A DNA stretch of 64,000 nucleotides from Deltaproteobacteria bacterium (GTDB lineage Bacteria; Myxococcota_A; UBA9042; DTJE01). The position numbers and the translations under genes are program-made. The notes under the pieces are model-generated. The model worked only from the letters and a program-made list of their open reading frames with translations. It was not told where the DNA came from and did no database searches. Shown piece after piece: positions 1,531-14,785 of the stretch. Numbering within the stretch: the first letter of the stretch is position 1; the number at the start of each line of letters is the position of its first letter. Location: positions 1 to 64,000 of the forward strand of contig JAKPTZ010000081.1 in assembly GCA_029555025.1 (NCBI GenBank), written 5' to 3'.

Positions 1531-2415
1531 ATGGACGAAAAACAGATTCAGGATCTGGTCACCGCCGCAGTCGTCGAGGCGCTTGCAAAGCAGAACGCCC
1601 CGACGAAGTTCCAGCCCGGTGGAAACCGTCCTGCCGAAGAATTGAAGCTTGCCAAGCGCGTTGCCGACTGGGCCGGAATGCCGATGCCACTGCCGCCGGC
1701 CCTGCAGAACTGGCTGCCCGATGGCAACCGCGCCACTTACCTTGGCGCGACCCCTGCCCGCCTGGGCGTCGGCCGCACCGGTGTCCGCCCACGCACCGAC
1801 ACGTGCCTGACGTTCCGCGAGGATCACGCCGCAGCCAAGGACGCCGTTTCGTCGTGCCTGGACGAAAACATTCTGAAGCAGTTCAACATCGTCCACCTGC
1901 ATTCGGCCGCGAAGGACCGCGCCGAATTCCTGCGCCGACCCGACCTTGGCCGCAAGCTGGACGCTGAATCAGTTGAAAAGATAAAGAAAACCGCCGTCAA
2001 GGGCGCCCAGATCCAGATTGTCCTGGTTGACGGTCTTTCGGCGACGGCCCTGAACGCGAACGTCCCGACAATCCTGCCGCTGATCCTGGACGGACTTAAC
2101 CGTGCCGGCATCAGGTCTGGAACCGTGTATGCCGTTTCGCTTGGCCGCGTCGTCGTCTCGGACGAAGTTGCCAGGCTGACCGGCGCCGAATGCAGCCTGC
2201 TGCTTGTCGGCGAGCGCCCCGGACTGAAAACCGCGGAATCCATGGGCGGTTACGTGACTTACATGAAGGCCAGGAACTTCAACGAGGCCATGCGCGACGT
2301 CACATCCAACATCCACCGCGGCGGCCTTCGCTGCGAGGAAGCGGCCGCAAAACTGGTCGAGGGCTGCGCAAAGGCCCTGCGGGAACGCAAGACGGGCGTT
2401 GACGCCAACGGGTGA
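1531..2415 (+). CDS. eutC: Ethanolamine ammonia-lyase light (small) subunit
   Basis: 294 aa. EutC-like throughout (LPDGNRATYLGATPARLGVGRTGVRPRTDTCLTFREDHAAAKDAV; GYVTYMKARNFNEAMRDVTSNIHRGGLRCEEAA). N-terminus MDEKQIQDLVTAAVVEAL resembles the enterobacterial EutC targeting helix. Confidence 0.97.
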   Translation: MDEKQIQDLVTAAVVEALAKQNAPTKFQPGGNRPAEELKLAKRVADWAGMPMPLPPALQNWLPDGNRATYLGATPARLGVGRTGVRPRTDTCLTFREDHAAAKDAVSSCLDENILKQFNIVHLHSAAKDRAEFLRRPDLGRKLDAESVEKIKKTAVKGAQIQIVLVDGLSATALNANVPTILPLILDGLNRAGIRSGTVYAVSLGRVVVSDEVARLTGAECSLLLVGERPGLKTAESMGGYVTYMKARNFNEAMRDVTSNIHRGGLRCEEAAAKLVEGCAKALRERKTGVDANG

Positions 2416-2441: not shown

Positions 2442-3722
2442 ATGATTCTGGAACCGATTAAGCCGCGCGTCCTTGGCCTGCGGGTCATCCCGAATGTCGA
2501 TCCACAGCTTGCACGCGACCTGAAGTTGCAGCCGAACCACCGCGCGATCGGCCTGCTGACCTGCACCAGCGACGACGCCCTGTACACCGCGCTGGACGAA
2601 GGCACCAAGGCCGCCGACGTCGATGTCGTCTATGGCCGCAGTTTCTATGCAGGTTCGGCGCACGCAAGCGGCCCGCTTTCGGGCGAGGTCATCGGCATCT
2701 TCGCCGCCGCCGATGAAGAAAGCGTCGCATCCGCCCTGACCGCAACCACCCGTTATCTTGACACAAAGGCCTGGTTCTATTCGGCAAACGACGAATGCAG
2801 CCTGGCGTTTTTCCCGCACGTCATACCGTCGGTCGGGCGGTATCTGGCCGGACTGGCCGGCGTCGAGCCCGGCACCCCGATGGCGTACCTGATCGCCCCG
2901 CCGATCGAGGCGATGGTCGCCCTGGACGCGGCCTTGAAGGTCGCCGACGTTGAAATGAAGATTTTCATTCCGCCGCCGTCTGAAACGAACTTCGCCGGGG
3001 GCTTCCTGGTCGGCGACATATATGCAGTCCAGGCCGCGGCGGCGGCGTTCCAGGAAAAAGTCCTGGAAATGGCGGCACTTCCCCGCGTGATGACGCCAAA
3101 ACAGGAACTTGAATGCCTGACCGAGCGCTTCGGCCGCGAACGGGCGAAACTGGCGAGAAAGGGAAAGAAGCCCTTCCGCATCCTGGAAAGCGGCCTTGAA
3201 CTGGATTCCAAGCCGAGCGGGTTCACGCACCTGTTCGACAACCGCAGCCTGGTGCCGAAGAACCATCCGGCCATCCGGTTCCGCGGCAAACTGGATCTGC
3301 TGCAGGCGTACGTCCTGGACGCCCAGCAGGCGTGTATCGCGGAAGGTCTGGGCGATATCGCGAAGGACCTTGGGGACATCCTGGACTACCTGCGCCGGCT
3401 GCTTGCCGCCGAGGTTGTCGGCACCCCGGTTCCCGAGCTTGTGGTGGGCGGCCTGAAGGCCGACGAGCTTCAGAAGTTATCACATAACACAAAGAAATTC
3501 TTGAATGTCGGATGGGTAATGCCAGACGCGACGATGGGCGCCGCCGTCGTCAAGCTGAACCTTCTGCGCGCCTATTCCAGGGACGTGGAGATCGCCGCAA
3601 TCGACGCCCACGGCGGCGACACCCACATGAACCCGGCGGACCGCGACGCGATGATTCACGGCCTGAACCGCATCAGTTCCGCCATCCACGCCCTGGTCTG
3701 CAAGCGCCTGAACCGCACCTGA
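2442..3722 (+). CDS. eutL-eutT: Fusion protein: EutL-type BMC shell protein (N-terminal about 215 aa) + EutT-type corrinoid adenosyltransferase (C-terminal about 180 aa)
   Basis: N-half IKPRVLGLRVIPNVDPQLARDLKLQPNHRAIGLLTCTSDDALYTALDEGTKAADVDVVYGRSFYAGSAHASGPLSGEV...PMAYLIAPPIEAMVALDAALKVADVEMKIFIPPPSETNFAGGFL is EutL-like. C-half THLFDNRSLVPKNHPAIRFRGKLDLLQAYV...LSHNTKKFLNVGWVMPDATMGAAVVKLNLLRAYSRDVE...GLNRISSAIHALV is EutT-like. Confidence 0.88.
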   Translation: MILEPIKPRVLGLRVIPNVDPQLARDLKLQPNHRAIGLLTCTSDDALYTALDEGTKAADVDVVYGRSFYAGSAHASGPLSGEVIGIFAAADEESVASALTATTRYLDTKAWFYSANDECSLAFFPHVIPSVGRYLAGLAGVEPGTPMAYLIAPPIEAMVALDAALKVADVEMKIFIPPPSETNFAGGFLVGDIYAVQAAAAAFQEKVLEMAALPRVMTPKQELECLTERFGRERAKLARKGKKPFRILESGLELDSKPSGFTHLFDNRSLVPKNHPAIRFRGKLDLLQAYVLDAQQACIAEGLGDIAKDLGDILDYLRRLLAAEVVGTPVPELVVGGLKADELQKLSHNTKKFLNVGWVMPDATMGAAVVKLNLLRAYSRDVEIAAIDAHGGDTHMNPADRDAMIHGLNRISSAIHALVCKRLNRT

Positions 3723-3804
3723 ACCGCATCAGTTCGGCCATCCACGCCCTGGTCTGCAAGCGCCTGAACCGCACCTGAACCACACATGAACCGCGCCTGA
3801 ACCT
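3663..3804 (+). repeat. 56-bp tandem duplication of the eutL-eutT 3' end plus degenerate CCTGAACC repeats
   Basis: CTGAACCGCATCAGTTC(C/G)GCCATCCACGCCCTGGTCTGCAAGCGCCTGAACCGCAC at 3663-3718 and 3719-3774, one mismatch. Spans the TGA stop (3720-3722). Confidence 0.97.
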
Positions 3805-7660: not shown

Positions 7661-7920
7661 ACCACACCGGCTTTCTGACGGTGGCACAAAGGGACACGAT
7701 GAAGCCAGGATCCACAAAGTCTGATGTCAAATCGGGCGAAAGCTGGCCCGCCGACATCACCCGCCCAGGGACGCATCCCGTATGTCGAATGCGCGGCGGT
7801 GCGGCCGCCGTCCGTTGACCGGTCGCACCAGTTCCCCTGAAACACATGAAGGATTGCTGCCTGCCGCATGGCAGGACGAATATGTCGTGCGAAGCGATGC
7901 ACGGCTTACGGGAGCGTGAA
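7661..7920 (+). ncRNA. Candidate structured 5' leader (cis-regulatory RNA) of the methionine operon
   Basis: About 260 nt between putative promoter and RBS GGGAG. Hairpins include TGATGTC/GACATCA (7722-7759) with inner CGGGC/GCCCG, GGGA-CGCA-TCCC (7768-7779), GGCGG/CCGCC (7795-7809), CCTGCC-GCAT-GGCAGG (7860-7875), CGTGC/GCACG (7886-7903). Confidence 0.45.
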
Positions 7921-10341
7921 ATGCAACGGATACTGAACAAACTGGTCGTGGATGATTGCTGCGACGACGCCGGGCCGGGCATCGAGACTATCCTGGTTCA
8001 TGCCGGCCAGGCGCCGGATCCGGCGACCGGGGCGCGTGCCGTCCCGCTTTACCAGACGGCCAGCTACGTGTTTGAAAGCGCCGATCATGCCGCGGACCTG
8101 TTCGCGTTGAAGCGTGAAGGAAACATCTACACCAGGCTAGGCAACCCGACCTCCGATGTATTTGAGCAGAGGGTTGCGGCCATGGAGGGCGGCTCGGGCG
8201 CCCTGGCGACCTCCAGCGGGATGGCGGCCATCTTCCTTGCCGTGCACACGGTGGCGCGCGCCGGCGACCACATTGTTGCCGCGGCATCCCTTTATGGCGG
8301 CACGGACACCCTTTTCCGCCACACCTTCGAACGGCTGGGCATCGACGTAACCTTCATCGACGACCCGACACCTGAAAGCGTCCTTGGCGCAATGCGGCCG
8401 GAAACGCGCCTGGTTTTCATCGAGACCATCAGCAATCCTGGCGGCGACGTCCCGGATATCGCCGGAATCGCGGCGGCGGCCCATTCGGCCGGCGTTCCGC
8501 TGTTCGTTGACAACACGTTCGCTCCGGTTCTTTGCCGCCCGCTGCGGCACGGGGCTGACGTTGTGATTCACTCGGCCACCAAATGGATCTGCGGCCACGG
8601 AACCTCGATTGGCGGCGTCATCGTGGATGGCGGCCGATTCGACTGGACTTGCGGCCGATTCCCGGACTTCACCACGCCCGACGAAAGCTACCACGGGGTC
8701 GTTTATGCCCGCGACTTCGGCAATATGGCGTTCATTCGCAAGGCTCGCCTTCAGGGCCTTCGCAACATCGGCATGTGCGCGTCGCCTTTCAACAGCTTCA
8801 TGTTCCTTCAGGGACTTGAAACGCTTCACCTGCGCATCCGGGAACAGTGTGCCGGCGCGCTGAAGCTGGCCCGCTGGCTGGCCCGCCGCCCCGAAGTGCT
8901 GTGGGTCAACTACCCCGGGCTGCCAGGGCATCCGTCGCACGAAAACGCCCGGCGCTTCCTCGCCGGCGGCTTCGGATCTGTCCTGGGTTTCGGTATCCGC
9001 GGAGGGGCGACTGCCGGCGCAAGGTTCATCGATTCAGTCAAGCTGGCGTCGCACCTGGCAAACATCGGCGACGCAAAGACCCTGGTCTTGCATCCGGCTT
9101 CAACCACCCACCAGCAGATGCCCCCCGAAGGTCTTGCCGCCTGCGGCATAACACCAGAATTCATCAGGGTTTCCGTTGGCCTGGAAAACGTCGCCGACAT
9201 CATCGCCGACTTCCGCCAGGCCTTTGCGACGGCATGCGGGACTGACGGGGCCTGCGGCCGGGACGAAGCCATTGACGTTCGGGAAACCGACACCGCGGCA
9301 CCGGTCTCGGACTTGACGAAATTCGCGGACATCCCCGGCGGGCTTACCCTGGAGAGCGGGGTGCGCCTGCCGGAACTACGACTTGCGTACCGCACGTGGG
9401 GCCGACTGAACCAGGCCGGCGACAACGCGGTCGTCCTTTGTCACGCGCTGACGGGCTCGGCGGACGCGGATGACTGGTGGAAAGGGCTAATCGGTTCCGG
9501 ATGCGCGGCCGACCCTGCCGACGACTTCATCGTGTGCGCCAACCTTCCGGGAAGCTGTTATGGCTCGACCGGGCCTCTTGCCAGAAACCCCGCCACGGGA
9601 CGTCCATGGGGTCCCGACTTCCCCGCGCTGACCGTCCGCGACATGGTCGCGGCACAGGCGGCCCTGTGCAGGCAGCTTGGCGTACGATCGATTCGCACGG
9701 TCATTGGCGGCTCCCTTGGCGGCATGATGGCCCTGGAGTTCGCGGCGATGTACCCGGAGATGGTGCGGTCGGCCGTGTCGATCGCGGCCTGCGCACGCCA
9801 TTCGGCATGGTGCACGGGGCTTTCCGAAGCCCAGCGCGCCACGATAATGGCGGACCCCGACTGGTGCGGCGGCCGATATGATCGAACCTGCCCGCCGGCC
9901 GCGGGCCTGGCGGCCGCGCGCATGACCGCGATGTGTACCTATCGAAGCCACGAAAGCTTCCAGGCGAGGTTCGGCCGGACGATCCAGGACGATGGCCGAT
10001 TCGCGGTCGAATCATACCTGCACCACCAGGGTGACAAGCTGGTCGGCCGGTTCGACGCAAACACATACATGATCCTGACAAGGGCGATGGACACGCACGA
10101 CCTGGGCCGCGGGCGCGGCGGACTGCAGGCGGCGCTTGCGGCGATTCGCATCCCGGTCCTGGTCGTTTCATACGACAGCGACGTGCTGTACCCGACTGCC
10201 GACCAGGCGGAGATCGCCGCAGGCATTCCCGGGGCGCGTCTGGAAACGCTTCATTCGCCCCACGGACACGATGCATTCCTGATTGATATCGCGCAACTGG
10301 CACGTCTTATCGCCAACTTTCGGGCAGAGGTGAAATCATGA
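7921..10341 (+). CDS. metY-metX: Fusion: O-acetylhomoserine sulfhydrylase (MetY, PLP) + homoserine O-acetyltransferase (MetX, alpha/beta hydrolase)
   Basis: ORF 7846..10341; ATG 7921 has RBS GGGAG. N-half Cys/Met PLP family (YTRLGNPTSDVFEQRVAAMEGGSGALATSSGMAAIF; VIHSATKWICGHGTSIGGVIVDGG). C-half MetX (LESGVRLPELRLAYRTWGRLNQAGDNAVVLCHALTGSAD; VIGGSLGGMMALEFAAMYPEMVRSAVSIA; SYDSDVLYPTADQ; HGHDAFL). Confidence 0.95.
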   Translation: MQRILNKLVVDDCCDDAGPGIETILVHAGQAPDPATGARAVPLYQTASYVFESADHAADLFALKREGNIYTRLGNPTSDVFEQRVAAMEGGSGALATSSGMAAIFLAVHTVARAGDHIVAAASLYGGTDTLFRHTFERLGIDVTFIDDPTPESVLGAMRPETRLVFIETISNPGGDVPDIAGIAAAAHSAGVPLFVDNTFAPVLCRPLRHGADVVIHSATKWICGHGTSIGGVIVDGGRFDWTCGRFPDFTTPDESYHGVVYARDFGNMAFIRKARLQGLRNIGMCASPFNSFMFLQGLETLHLRIREQCAGALKLARWLARRPEVLWVNYPGLPGHPSHENARRFLAGGFGSVLGFGIRGGATAGARFIDSVKLASHLANIGDAKTLVLHPASTTHQQMPPEGLAACGITPEFIRVSVGLENVADIIADFRQAFATACGTDGACGRDEAIDVRETDTAAPVSDLTKFADIPGGLTLESGVRLPELRLAYRTWGRLNQAGDNAVVLCHALTGSADADDWWKGLIGSGCAADPADDFIVCANLPGSCYGSTGPLARNPATGRPWGPDFPALTVRDMVAAQAALCRQLGVRSIRTVIGGSLGGMMALEFAAMYPEMVRSAVSIAACARHSAWCTGLSEAQRATIMADPDWCGGRYDRTCPPAAGLAAARMTAMCTYRSHESFQARFGRTIQDDGRFAVESYLHHQGDKLVGRFDANTYMILTRAMDTHDLGRGRGGLQAALAAIRIPVLVVSYDSDVLYPTADQAEIAAGIPGARLETLHSPHGHDAFLIDIAQLARLIANFRAEVKS

Positions 10342-12839
10342 GCGACTGGAAAGTCCTGAAATTCGGCGGATCGTCCATGGGCGCTCCGGACCGCATCGCC
10401 CAGGTCATTGAAATCATCACCGCGACATCGGCCGGGTGCCCGACCGCCGTCGTCGTTTCCGCGATGCAACATACGACGGATCGCCTGATCGAGGCCAGCG
10501 AGCTGGCCGCTGGTGGCGATCTTGAGGCCGCGGGCCGCATCGTCGATACGGTCATGGATCTGACGACCTCCAACGGACTGTTCGTCCTGCAAAACCTGCC
10601 CGGCGGCAAAAACGGCGGATCCGGGATCATCCCGCTGATCCGGGCCATGACGGACGAACTGCGCCAGCTTCTGTACGCCATGAGCCTGCTGCACGAACAG
10701 ACGCCGCAAACGTTGGATTTGATCCTGTCCTTCGGCGAACGCCTGTCGGCCTCTGTGCTGACCGAACTGCTGAAGGCGGCCGGCCTTCCGGCGGTATTCG
10801 TGGACTCACGTCAATGGACCGTGACAGACGCCGGTTTTGGCGCCGCGGTCGTGGATCAGGACGCCACCAGGGCCAGTCTGCGCGAGCTGGCGGCGGACTG
10901 GGACGGCCGCGTGCCCGTGACCACCGGGTTCCTGGGGCGCACCCCCGACGGCCGCACGACCACGCTCGGACGCAACGGGTCGGACTACACCGCCTCGCTG
11001 CTTGCGCGGGGACTTAAGGCCAGCGAAGTCGTCGTGTGGACGGACGTTTCCGGCGTCATGACGGCCGACCCGGGAATCGTGGCCGACGCGTATCCCCTGG
11101 CGCGCATGAGCTACATGGAAGCCCTGGAAATGGTTGACTTCGGCGCGACGCTGTTTCATCCGCGCACGATGATTCCGTTGATCGAGGACAACATCCCGAT
11201 GCGCATCCGCAACACGATGCGCCCGGACGACCCCGGCACGCTGATTGACGCCACCGGCAGCCAGGACGAATCGGCGGCAACGTCGGTTACCTCGATGGAA
11301 AACCTTGCCCTGCTGAGCATCCAGGTCCGCCGCATTGCAATGCGCGCACAGGCTTCCGTACGTGTCCTTGGTGCCCTGGAACAGGCGGGCGTCACCGTCT
11401 GGATGTCCACGCTGTCGGCCCACGGCCACTCGGCCGCCGCGGTGGTCAGGCGCGCCGATGCCGCACGCGCCAGTGACGCCATCAGCCGGGAATTCATCCT
11501 TGAACTGCAACGCGGCGAAATCGAGCCGGTCAGCCTGCGCGAGCCGGTCACCCTGCTGACCCTGGTCGCCGAGGCCATGGGCCGCACGACCAACGTGGCC
11601 GGGCGCTTCTTCAATTCCCTTGGCATGATGGGCATTCCCATCCGCGCCAGTGCCCAGGGCGCCAGCGAACGCTCGATTTCATGCGTCATCGACGCTGCGG
11701 ACACACAGGTTGCTGTCCGGACGGTTCACTCGGCCTTCAACTTCAGCCACCAGGACGTGTCGCTGTTCATCCTTGGCAAGGGAAGCGTCGGCGGCAACCT
11801 GCTGACCCAGATTCGCGACGAACGCGACCGGCTTGAACGCGAATGTGACGTCCTGCTGCGCGTCGTCGGCATACGCGACAGTCGCGCCCTGATTTTTGAC
11901 GACCGCGGGATCGACCTTGACCGGTGGGGCGAACTACTCCAGGCGGCCGGCCCCGGGGACGTCCTGGATCGCCTTGACGACCTGCGTCGCCTGCCCGTGC
12001 CCATACTGGTCGATACGACCGGCCTGGACGGCATGGAAGAAATCTATCGCCAGGCGCTGTCCCGCGGCATCCACGTGGTGGCCGCGAACAAGAAGCCCCT
12101 GACCATCCCGGGCGCCGAACGGGCCGAACTGTTCGCGACCGCGCGTCGCAACCACCGCGTCTATCTGTACTCGACCACCGTCGGCGCAAGCCTGCCGGTC
12201 ATCGAGACCTTGAAGAACCTGGTCAGGACGGGAGACCACGTCAGGCGCATCGAAGGCAGCTTTTCCGGCACGATCGGCTACATCACGAACGAACTGATGG
12301 CTGGCGTCCCTCTTTCGCAGGCAACAAGGATCGCCCGGGAACTGGGCTACACCGAACCGAATCCGCAGGACGACCTGGGCGGGATGGACGTGGCCCGCAA
12401 GGCGCTGATCCTGACGCGCGAAATGGGCCTGGAACTGGAGATGTCCGACCTGGTTGTCGAGCCCCTTCTTCCGCCCGAACTGATGACGCCGATGAGTCCC
12501 GATGCGTTCTTCGAAAGCCTGAAGGCTTACGACCGGACGATGGCGGAAAGGATTGCGGCGATCAAGGAAAGCGGGAAGATCATGCGTTACCTGGCGATCG
12601 TCGATACACACGCCACCGGCACGCCGCAGGACCCGGTCGTTAAGGTTGGCCCGGTGCTGATCGAACGCGACCATCCGGCCGCGCTTCTGCGCGGAACCGA
12701 AGCTTTCGTCGCGTTCACAACCGACCGCTTCCTGGATTACCCGATTATCGTGCAGGGCTCCGGCGCTGGCGGGGTCGTCACCGCGGCCGGCGTCCTGTCC
12801 GACATCCTGAAGGTATCTATGACACTGCGCGGCCGGTGA
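10338..12839 (+). CDS. thrA: Bifunctional aspartokinase / homoserine dehydrogenase
   Basis: 833 aa: AK (VLKFGGSSMGAPDRIAQV; GRNGSDYTASLLARGLKASEVVVWTDVSGVMTADPG), ACT-like region, HSD (VVAANKKPLT; EGSFSGTIGYITNELMAG; PNPQDDLGGMDVARKALIL). ATGA overlap with the upstream gene. thrA versus metL not resolvable. Confidence 0.96.
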   Translation: MSDWKVLKFGGSSMGAPDRIAQVIEIITATSAGCPTAVVVSAMQHTTDRLIEASELAAGGDLEAAGRIVDTVMDLTTSNGLFVLQNLPGGKNGGSGIIPLIRAMTDELRQLLYAMSLLHEQTPQTLDLILSFGERLSASVLTELLKAAGLPAVFVDSRQWTVTDAGFGAAVVDQDATRASLRELAADWDGRVPVTTGFLGRTPDGRTTTLGRNGSDYTASLLARGLKASEVVVWTDVSGVMTADPGIVADAYPLARMSYMEALEMVDFGATLFHPRTMIPLIEDNIPMRIRNTMRPDDPGTLIDATGSQDESAATSVTSMENLALLSIQVRRIAMRAQASVRVLGALEQAGVTVWMSTLSAHGHSAAAVVRRADAARASDAISREFILELQRGEIEPVSLREPVTLLTLVAEAMGRTTNVAGRFFNSLGMMGIPIRASAQGASERSISCVIDAADTQVAVRTVHSAFNFSHQDVSLFILGKGSVGGNLLTQIRDERDRLERECDVLLRVVGIRDSRALIFDDRGIDLDRWGELLQAAGPGDVLDRLDDLRRLPVPILVDTTGLDGMEEIYRQALSRGIHVVAANKKPLTIPGAERAELFATARRNHRVYLYSTTVGASLPVIETLKNLVRTGDHVRRIEGSFSGTIGYITNELMAGVPLSQATRIARELGYTEPNPQDDLGGMDVARKALILTREMGLELEMSDLVVEPLLPPELMTPMSPDAFFESLKAYDRTMAERIAAIKESGKIMRYLAIVDTHATGTPQDPVVKVGPVLIERDHPAALLRGTEAFVAFTTDRFLDYPIIVQGSGAGGVVTAAGVLSDILKVSMTLRGR

Positions 12840-12845
12840 ATCCAG

Positions 12846-12914
12846 TCCCCCTGCCCTGGCCTTGTACGGGCGGATTACATTCCCCTGCCCTGGCCTTGTA
12901 CGGGCGGATTACAT
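12846..12914 (+). repeat. Tandem 34/35-bp repeat carrying the GTACGGGCGGATTACAT element
   Basis: TCCCC(C)TGCCCTGGCCTTGTACGGGCGGATTACAT twice (12846-12880, 12881-12914), with a third partial GTACGGGCGGATTACA at 12945-12960. Confidence 0.95.
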
Positions 12915-12921
12915 CCGCCCG
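12898..12921 (+). repeat. Palindromic element, variant A: GTACGGGCGGAT-TAC-ATCCGCCCG
   Basis: Perfect 9-bp stem CGGGCGGAT/ATCCGCCCG. Confidence 0.95.
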
Positions 12922-13016
12922 CCGCGACAGGCAATGATCCCATTGTACGGGCGGATTACACGCGCCCGCCCTGCAACCGAATCATCCTCCCCCTTTCCCC
13001 GTTCCGTCCTTCGATC

Positions 13017-14761: not shown

Positions 14762-14785
14762 CGGGCGGATGTAATCCGCCCGTAC
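14762..14785 (-). repeat. Palindromic element, variant A, inverted
   Basis: CGGGCGGATGTAATCCGCCCGTAC is the exact reverse complement of GTACGGGCGGATTACATCCGCCCG at 12898. Confidence 0.95.

Follow-up and report, generated by a model that had tools for sequence, protein, structure and literature searches.

The window analysed here, a stretch of 64,000 nucleotides (G000:C153:1-64000), begins with a compact ethanolamine cassette on the forward strand. The gene for the large subunit of ethanolamine ammonia-lyase, eutB (18-1379, 453 aa; PF06751 684 bits, NF011649 656 bits), opens the contig, so that any sequence upstream of it is beyond the contig's edge, and is followed by the small-subunit gene eutC (1531-2415, 294 aa; PF05985 244 bits, NF003971 252 bits). 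Codons 1-21 of eutC (1531-1593, forward strand) encode MDEKQIQDLVTAAVVEALAKQ, an amphipathic N-terminus that by sequence comparison resembles an encapsulation peptide, as do the N-termini of the EutC of relatives and of the AldDH of the main shell locus; residues 1-20 of EutC are the encapsulation peptide in Salmonella (PMC12487888). The eutC stop is separated by 26 bp from the start of eutLT (2442-3722, forward strand, 426 aa; identified with HMMs and homologues), which adjoins eutBC in the loci of the window's family wherever the contig permits. Two neighbouring genes, eutB and eutLT, have had their 3' ends duplicated in the same manner: at 1353-1513, a 69-bp unit in 2.3 copies repeats the last eutB codons (GNMGLFL-stop) twice into the spacer behind the stop, and at 3662-3781, a 56-bp unit in 2.1 copies places the final 19-20 eutLT codons a second time after the stop; both repeats are absent from the sister genome G001. 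Further along the window, an 831-aa ORF (7846-10341) joins a MetY-like Cys/Met-metabolism PLP enzyme to a MetX-like alpha/beta-hydrolase domain and adjoins a fused aspartokinase-homoserine dehydrogenase (10338-12839), and three short palindromes of the type GGGCGGATTACATCCGCCC (12902-12920, 12949-12967 and 14763-14781, against 0.05 expected in the window) are possibly REP-like.

The preliminary description had read eutLT as one uninterrupted 426-aa frame, directly after eutBC, in which EutL is followed by a linker and an EutT-type domain. This reading holds: a single open frame runs from an ATG over 2442-3722, all the peptides quoted in that description are present, and EutL and EutT/Cob_adeno_trans models match the same protein. 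The EutL domain, a tandem permuted BMC-T shell protein (residues 1-215, 2442-3086), matches the EutL equivalog models over its full length: the NCBIfam EutL models together cover residues 2-215, NF011934 scoring 281.7 bits over residues 2-214 (cut-off 198) and TIGR04502 291.3 bits, slightly below its cut-off of 300, while PF00936 (BMC) gives 43.5 bits, above its gathering cut-off, and phmmer aligns this half with 4edi at 216 bits (E 7e-63). A linker (residues 216-254, 3087-3203) leads to the corrinoid adenosyltransferase (ATR) core, of EutT/Cob_adeno_trans type (residues 255-419, 3204-3698). PF01923 (Cob_adeno_trans) matches residues 260-419 with 41-43 bits, the 41.1 bits of the eutLT product against a gathering score of 24 placing it in the PduO/EutT superfamily. 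The EutT model NF011595 gives 78 bits over residues 255-419 and 81 for the C-terminal part alone, a match to the last two thirds of the profile only (positions 87-245) that falls short of the equivalog cut-off of 226 bits. The domain that the preliminary description had placed at about 240-426 is thus found by the HMMs, with its start at about 255 and not 240. As judged by the NCBI model scores, the product would be named a plain EutL, meaning that the fusion is easily overlooked.

Full-length fusions occur in 21 independent Myxococcota genomes from six families, with identity down to 46%: in all 13 genomes searched of the window's own family, in two genomes of a second family and, following a search of 379 Myxococcota genomes, in six more from four further families (46-59% identity). 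The 21 proteins can be aligned over their entire length. In one further genome (G216), the fusion is divided by a contig break, with 12 bases left between the EutL part and the end of one contig and 86 between the end of another contig and the ATR part, 98 bases in total where about 96 are expected for the linker. Among named records, the fusion is carried by MAGs under the labels Myxococcota, Myxococcales, Deltaproteobacteria or Oligoflexales; outside the Myxococcota, a search of a plasmid collection did not find it, and a contig scan reaching close relatives only found it solely in MAGs labelled Myxococcota, "Deltaproteobacteria" or "Oligoflexales". Over six pairs, EutL has a pN/pS of 0.09-0.20 and the ATR domain one of 0.09-0.25, values that place both under purifying selection of similar strength; the linker usually has a higher pN/pS than either domain. 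An internal translation start in the linker was considered and rejected since M218 is not conserved among the 21 fusions; the linker holds no conserved methionine, giving no sign that the second half is translated on its own. That a chimeric join or a missed frameshift created the long frame, as could be feared with a metagenome draft in which eutB and eutLT both end in small tandem repeats, is hardly conceivable when 20 other genomes, independently assembled, carry the same architecture at 46-87% identity in a single aligned frame with both domains constrained: eutLT is a genuine EutL-ATR fusion and assembly error is ruled out.

Phylogenetically, the ATR domains of the fusions cluster in a single clade, apart from the separate EutTs (support 95/89). 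The EutL tree splits the fusions into two groups that flank a clade of EutL-only Myxococcota, a topology compatible with one early fusion followed by losses or with two fusions of related domains. EutL-only relatives that have eutBC comprise 17 sampled proteins of one clade, plus that of G352 (L125 8371-9156), which is nested in the fused group, keeps a linker-like tail and on this basis probably lost its ATR domain. In a spirochaete (locus L038), eutL and a metal-free eutT are separate genes in one contiguous BMC locus.

What organelle would EutLT belong to? Other contigs of the same genome (G000) carry a BMC-T, a BMC-H, a BMC-P, AldDH and a tandem BMC gene (C81), a PduS-like protein and a BMC-T (C116), and two BMC-P genes with a class II aldolase (C157). 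Three adjacent BMC-P genes stand beside a DUF2505 protein on C111 (L096 8968-9891), and with three further BMC-P genes in addition to this trio the number of pentamer paralogues is high. A main shell locus with AldDH (C81) and a satellite of two BMC-P genes and an aldolase (C157) are the features of an HO-type BMC, an HO-like assignment made by gene content. HO satellites with two BMC-P genes and an aldolase have been described, and HO, SPU3 and SPU6 BMCs have "EUT module" satellites consisting of EutA/B/C and EutL, whose proposed role is to add ethanolamine to the range of the main BMC (PMC8217296). Here, eutB, eutC and eutL are together and apart from the main shell locus. The eutBC-eutLT locus therefore fits the pattern of an "EUT module" serving as satellite to an HO-like microcompartment, the other shell genes of which are scattered over separate contigs. 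Neither the window's genome nor its family yielded a full EutA, the candidates in the genome being rejected as short ATPase-motif hits; EutQ, the enteric luminal acetate kinase, was not found in the window's genome.

An orphan EutL lacking a shell was rejected because BMC-H, BMC-T, BMC-P and AldDH genes are present in the same genome. A related proposal, that EutLT and EutBC act in the cytosol outside any shell with EutL as a mere scaffold, could draw on the distance of the cassette from other shell genes and on Acinetobacter, where EutBC can work without a metabolosome (PMC9426561). We nevertheless regard it as very unlikely because the genome and the family contain a complete shell gene set with AldDH, both EutC and AldDH bear encapsulation-peptide-like N-termini, and HO BMCs have been described with satellites of eutBC and eutL (PMC8217296).

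The predicted structure gives two domains whose folds can be recognized independently. An AlphaFold2 model of eutLT (from the 21-sequence alignment) has a mean pLDDT of 84.8 with two confident domains, and pLDDT falls below 50 at linker residues 216-240; the overall pTM of this monomer model, 0.50, makes the relative placement of the domains uninformative. Foldseek matches the model to EutL crystal structures (E ~1e-23, target TM-score 0.92), and its non-BMC matches are PduO-type adenosyltransferases, which are also the top matches when the ATR domain is modelled alone (pLDDT 90). The ATR domain is nevertheless remote from solved ATRs (Foldseek E ~5e-3 to 2e-2, TM ~0.45-0.66; profile E 0.006). 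Its active site is well conserved: D285 (3294-3296), R376 (3567-3569), R380 (3579-3581) and E383 (3588-3590), together with N409 (3666-3668) and S412 (3675-3677) of an NRxS motif, are invariant in 21/21 fusions. When aligned with PduO-type enzymes and with the EutTs of E. coli, Listeria, C. difficile and Cetobacterium, these six residues fall on the PduO/EutT positions D, R-x3-R-x2-E and NRxS (LNRxSD in PduO). Mutant structures of L. reuteri (D35, R132) and human (R190) enzymes are among the Foldseek matches, and we take D285 and R380 to be equivalent to these mutated residues, from the alignment and the family numbering. Position 358, a W that is replaced by F in the second clade, lines up with the aromatic residue F112 of PduO. 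Also retained are the conserved lysine K273 and a KPxxxTH motif, both of which active EutT homologues share.

The domain was announced as EutT-type, and this is right for the adenosyltransferase core; the N-terminal module of EutT and the metal motif of the enteric enzyme are missing. The motif H-X11-CC-X2-C, found at residue 67 of E. coli EutT and characteristic of class I, occurs in 0/21 fusions, and it is also missing from the Listeria, C. difficile, Cetobacterium and spirochaete EutTs. With an EutT core conserved in the absence of the metal motif, as in the aligned Listeria, C. difficile and Cetobacterium proteins, the fusions match class II, the metal-free class named by Costa and Escalante-Semerena (2018, as cited in PMC9426561). 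Each separate EutT in the comparison begins with 55-80 residues that bear a TPSA-x3-L signature (SPAA in the spirochaete), and alignment shows that this module (~60 aa, TPSAxxxL) is absent from the fusions. The region resembles the first 50 residues of EutQ (hhalign E 1e-4; hmmsearch 10.7-11.5 bits; one of 4000 shuffles scored as high), a weak similarity suggestive of homology. In Salmonella, EutQ helices H1/H2 (residues 9-41) reportedly bind the shell at the EutL-EutM interface while H3/H4 bind cargo (PMC12487888). By this resemblance, canonical EutT may dock to the shell via its N-terminal module, which the fusion may have made dispensable.

The ATR domain could conceivably have lost its activity and instead bind or chaperone B12 at the EutL pore, or simply trimerize EutL, leaving AdoCbl synthesis to a separate PduO-type enzyme. 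Such an enzyme is in fact encoded in every member of the window's family (in G000 the gene is fragmentary, with one piece at a contig end), the scores of the ATR domain against ATR and EutT models are low, and EutL has been crystallized with cobalamin, to go by a title cited in PMC12487888. The mapped catalytic positions are however all invariant in 21 sequences, K273 and KPxxxTH are retained as in active homologues and the domain is constrained as strongly as EutL, making this loss of function improbable. The presence of a separate PduO-type ATR throughout the family also makes the fused copy look dedicated.

We therefore favor a reading in which the EutL half anchors a trimeric ATR at the shell of an HO-like microcompartment and supplies AdoCbl to EutBC, which we consider likely. 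The coupling of cofactor supply to the shell, already suggested in the preliminary description, is the best-supported mechanism that we infer from the data. The EutL half would form a trimeric tile in a facet of the microcompartment, which would also encapsulate EutBC, and the three C-terminal domains, carried on flexible linkers, would come together as a PduO/EutT-type adenosyltransferase trimer. PduO-type ATRs are trimers, and since EutL is trimeric as well the two halves would share threefold symmetry. Cob(II/I)alamin and ATP would be converted to AdoCbl at the shell, and the shell-anchored ATR would thus supply or regenerate the cofactor for EutBC. In Salmonella, EutL is required for shell-cargo association (PMC12487888). 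Several points count against this reading, namely the remoteness of the ATR matches, the missed EutT cut-off, the replacement of the PduO ATP loop, the dispute over shell orientation in native organelles (PMC6109187), the existence of EutL-only relatives with eutBC and the weakness of the proposed EutT-EutQ module homology.

The side of the shell on which the ATR works is a further question. The circular permutation of EutL should place its C-terminus on the convex side, towards the lumen, and the ATR would most likely be luminal, inside the organelle below the EutL pore. Convex sides of shell tiles face the lumen in the HO shell, and it is on this side that permuted tiles have their termini (PMC6787980, PMC6109187). 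Alternatively, the ATR could sit on the cytosolic face, with AdoCbl entering through the EutL pore and no need for ATP inside. The orientation of the shell in native organelles is disputed, with arguments both ways (PMC6109187), ATP is thought to cross shell pores poorly (PMC12487888; PMC11334477), EutL is a trimeric tile with a large gated pore proposed as the passage for AdoCbl (PMC5821096), and the window's genome yielded no EutQ. By analogy with the solved HO shell, however, the termini of a permuted EutL would be on the convex, luminal side (PMC6787980; PMC8217296), and we hold a cytosol-facing ATR to be rather unlikely, albeit the most serious of the alternatives.

If the ATR is indeed anchored at the shell, an active enzyme might be covalently built into the BMC wall, the EutL pore tile and the symmetry-matched ATR trimer forming a cofactor-processing gate that adenosylates cobalamin for EutBC; this stronger proposal is tentative. 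It would imply that separate EutTs in other bacteria dock at EutL via their N-terminal module, a docking that the covalent link would replace in eutLT. On how AdoCbl-dependent enzymes inside microcompartments have their cofactor renewed, and on where EutT resides, reviews offer postulates only: entry of AdoCbl by way of the EutL pore, or its regeneration within the organelle (PMC5821096; PMC11334477). A natural EutL-ATR fusion across Myxococcota families is independent evidence that both proteins work side by side and makes the EutL-EutT contact directly testable. It also provides a natural precedent for an enzyme anchored to a shell tile, which engineers attempt to obtain artificially (PMC6109187, PMC6787980).

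The fusion can be set against five known systems. It shares the whole fold of EutL (NF011934/TIGR04502; 4edi, 3u27, 3i82); the EutL of Clostridium perfringens is ~50% identical to the EutL half, and the EutLs of E. coli, Listeria and C. difficile occupy the same position after eutBC, but the named EutLs compared end at ~217-220 aa, where eutLT adds the linker and the adenosyltransferase domain. Class II EutT (Listeria/Firmicutes) shares KPEHxTHL...LVxKxHPxIxxRGKLD, RxxxRExE and ALNRLSS with the fusion, both being devoid of H-X11-CC-X2-C; the fusion differs in being joined to EutL and in lacking the TPSAxxxL module. The catalytic core is also homologous to that of class I EutT (E. coli/Salmonella) over NF011595 positions 87-245, minus the N-terminal region bearing the metal motif. 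PduO-type ATRs (2nt8, 2idx, 1nog) have the same helical-bundle fold and the D, R, R, E, N and S positions, whereas sequence identity is low (~15-20%) and their N-terminal ATP loop T-x-x-G-D-x-G-x-T is replaced by the EutT-type KPxxxTHL. Finally, like the "EUT module" satellites of Sutter and Kerfeld (2021, PMC8217296), the locus combines eutB and eutC with an EutL-type BMC-T(sp) separately from the main shell locus, except that EutL is here fused to an ATR and no eutA was found. The main text of that paper does not mention an EutL-ATR fusion and, as the preliminary description had supposed, no report in open-access full text was found in which an adenosyltransferase is joined to EutL or to another shell protein with a BMC domain. 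Both domains and the type of locus are known; their architecture, and the coupling that it implies between cofactor supply and the shell, appear new to us.
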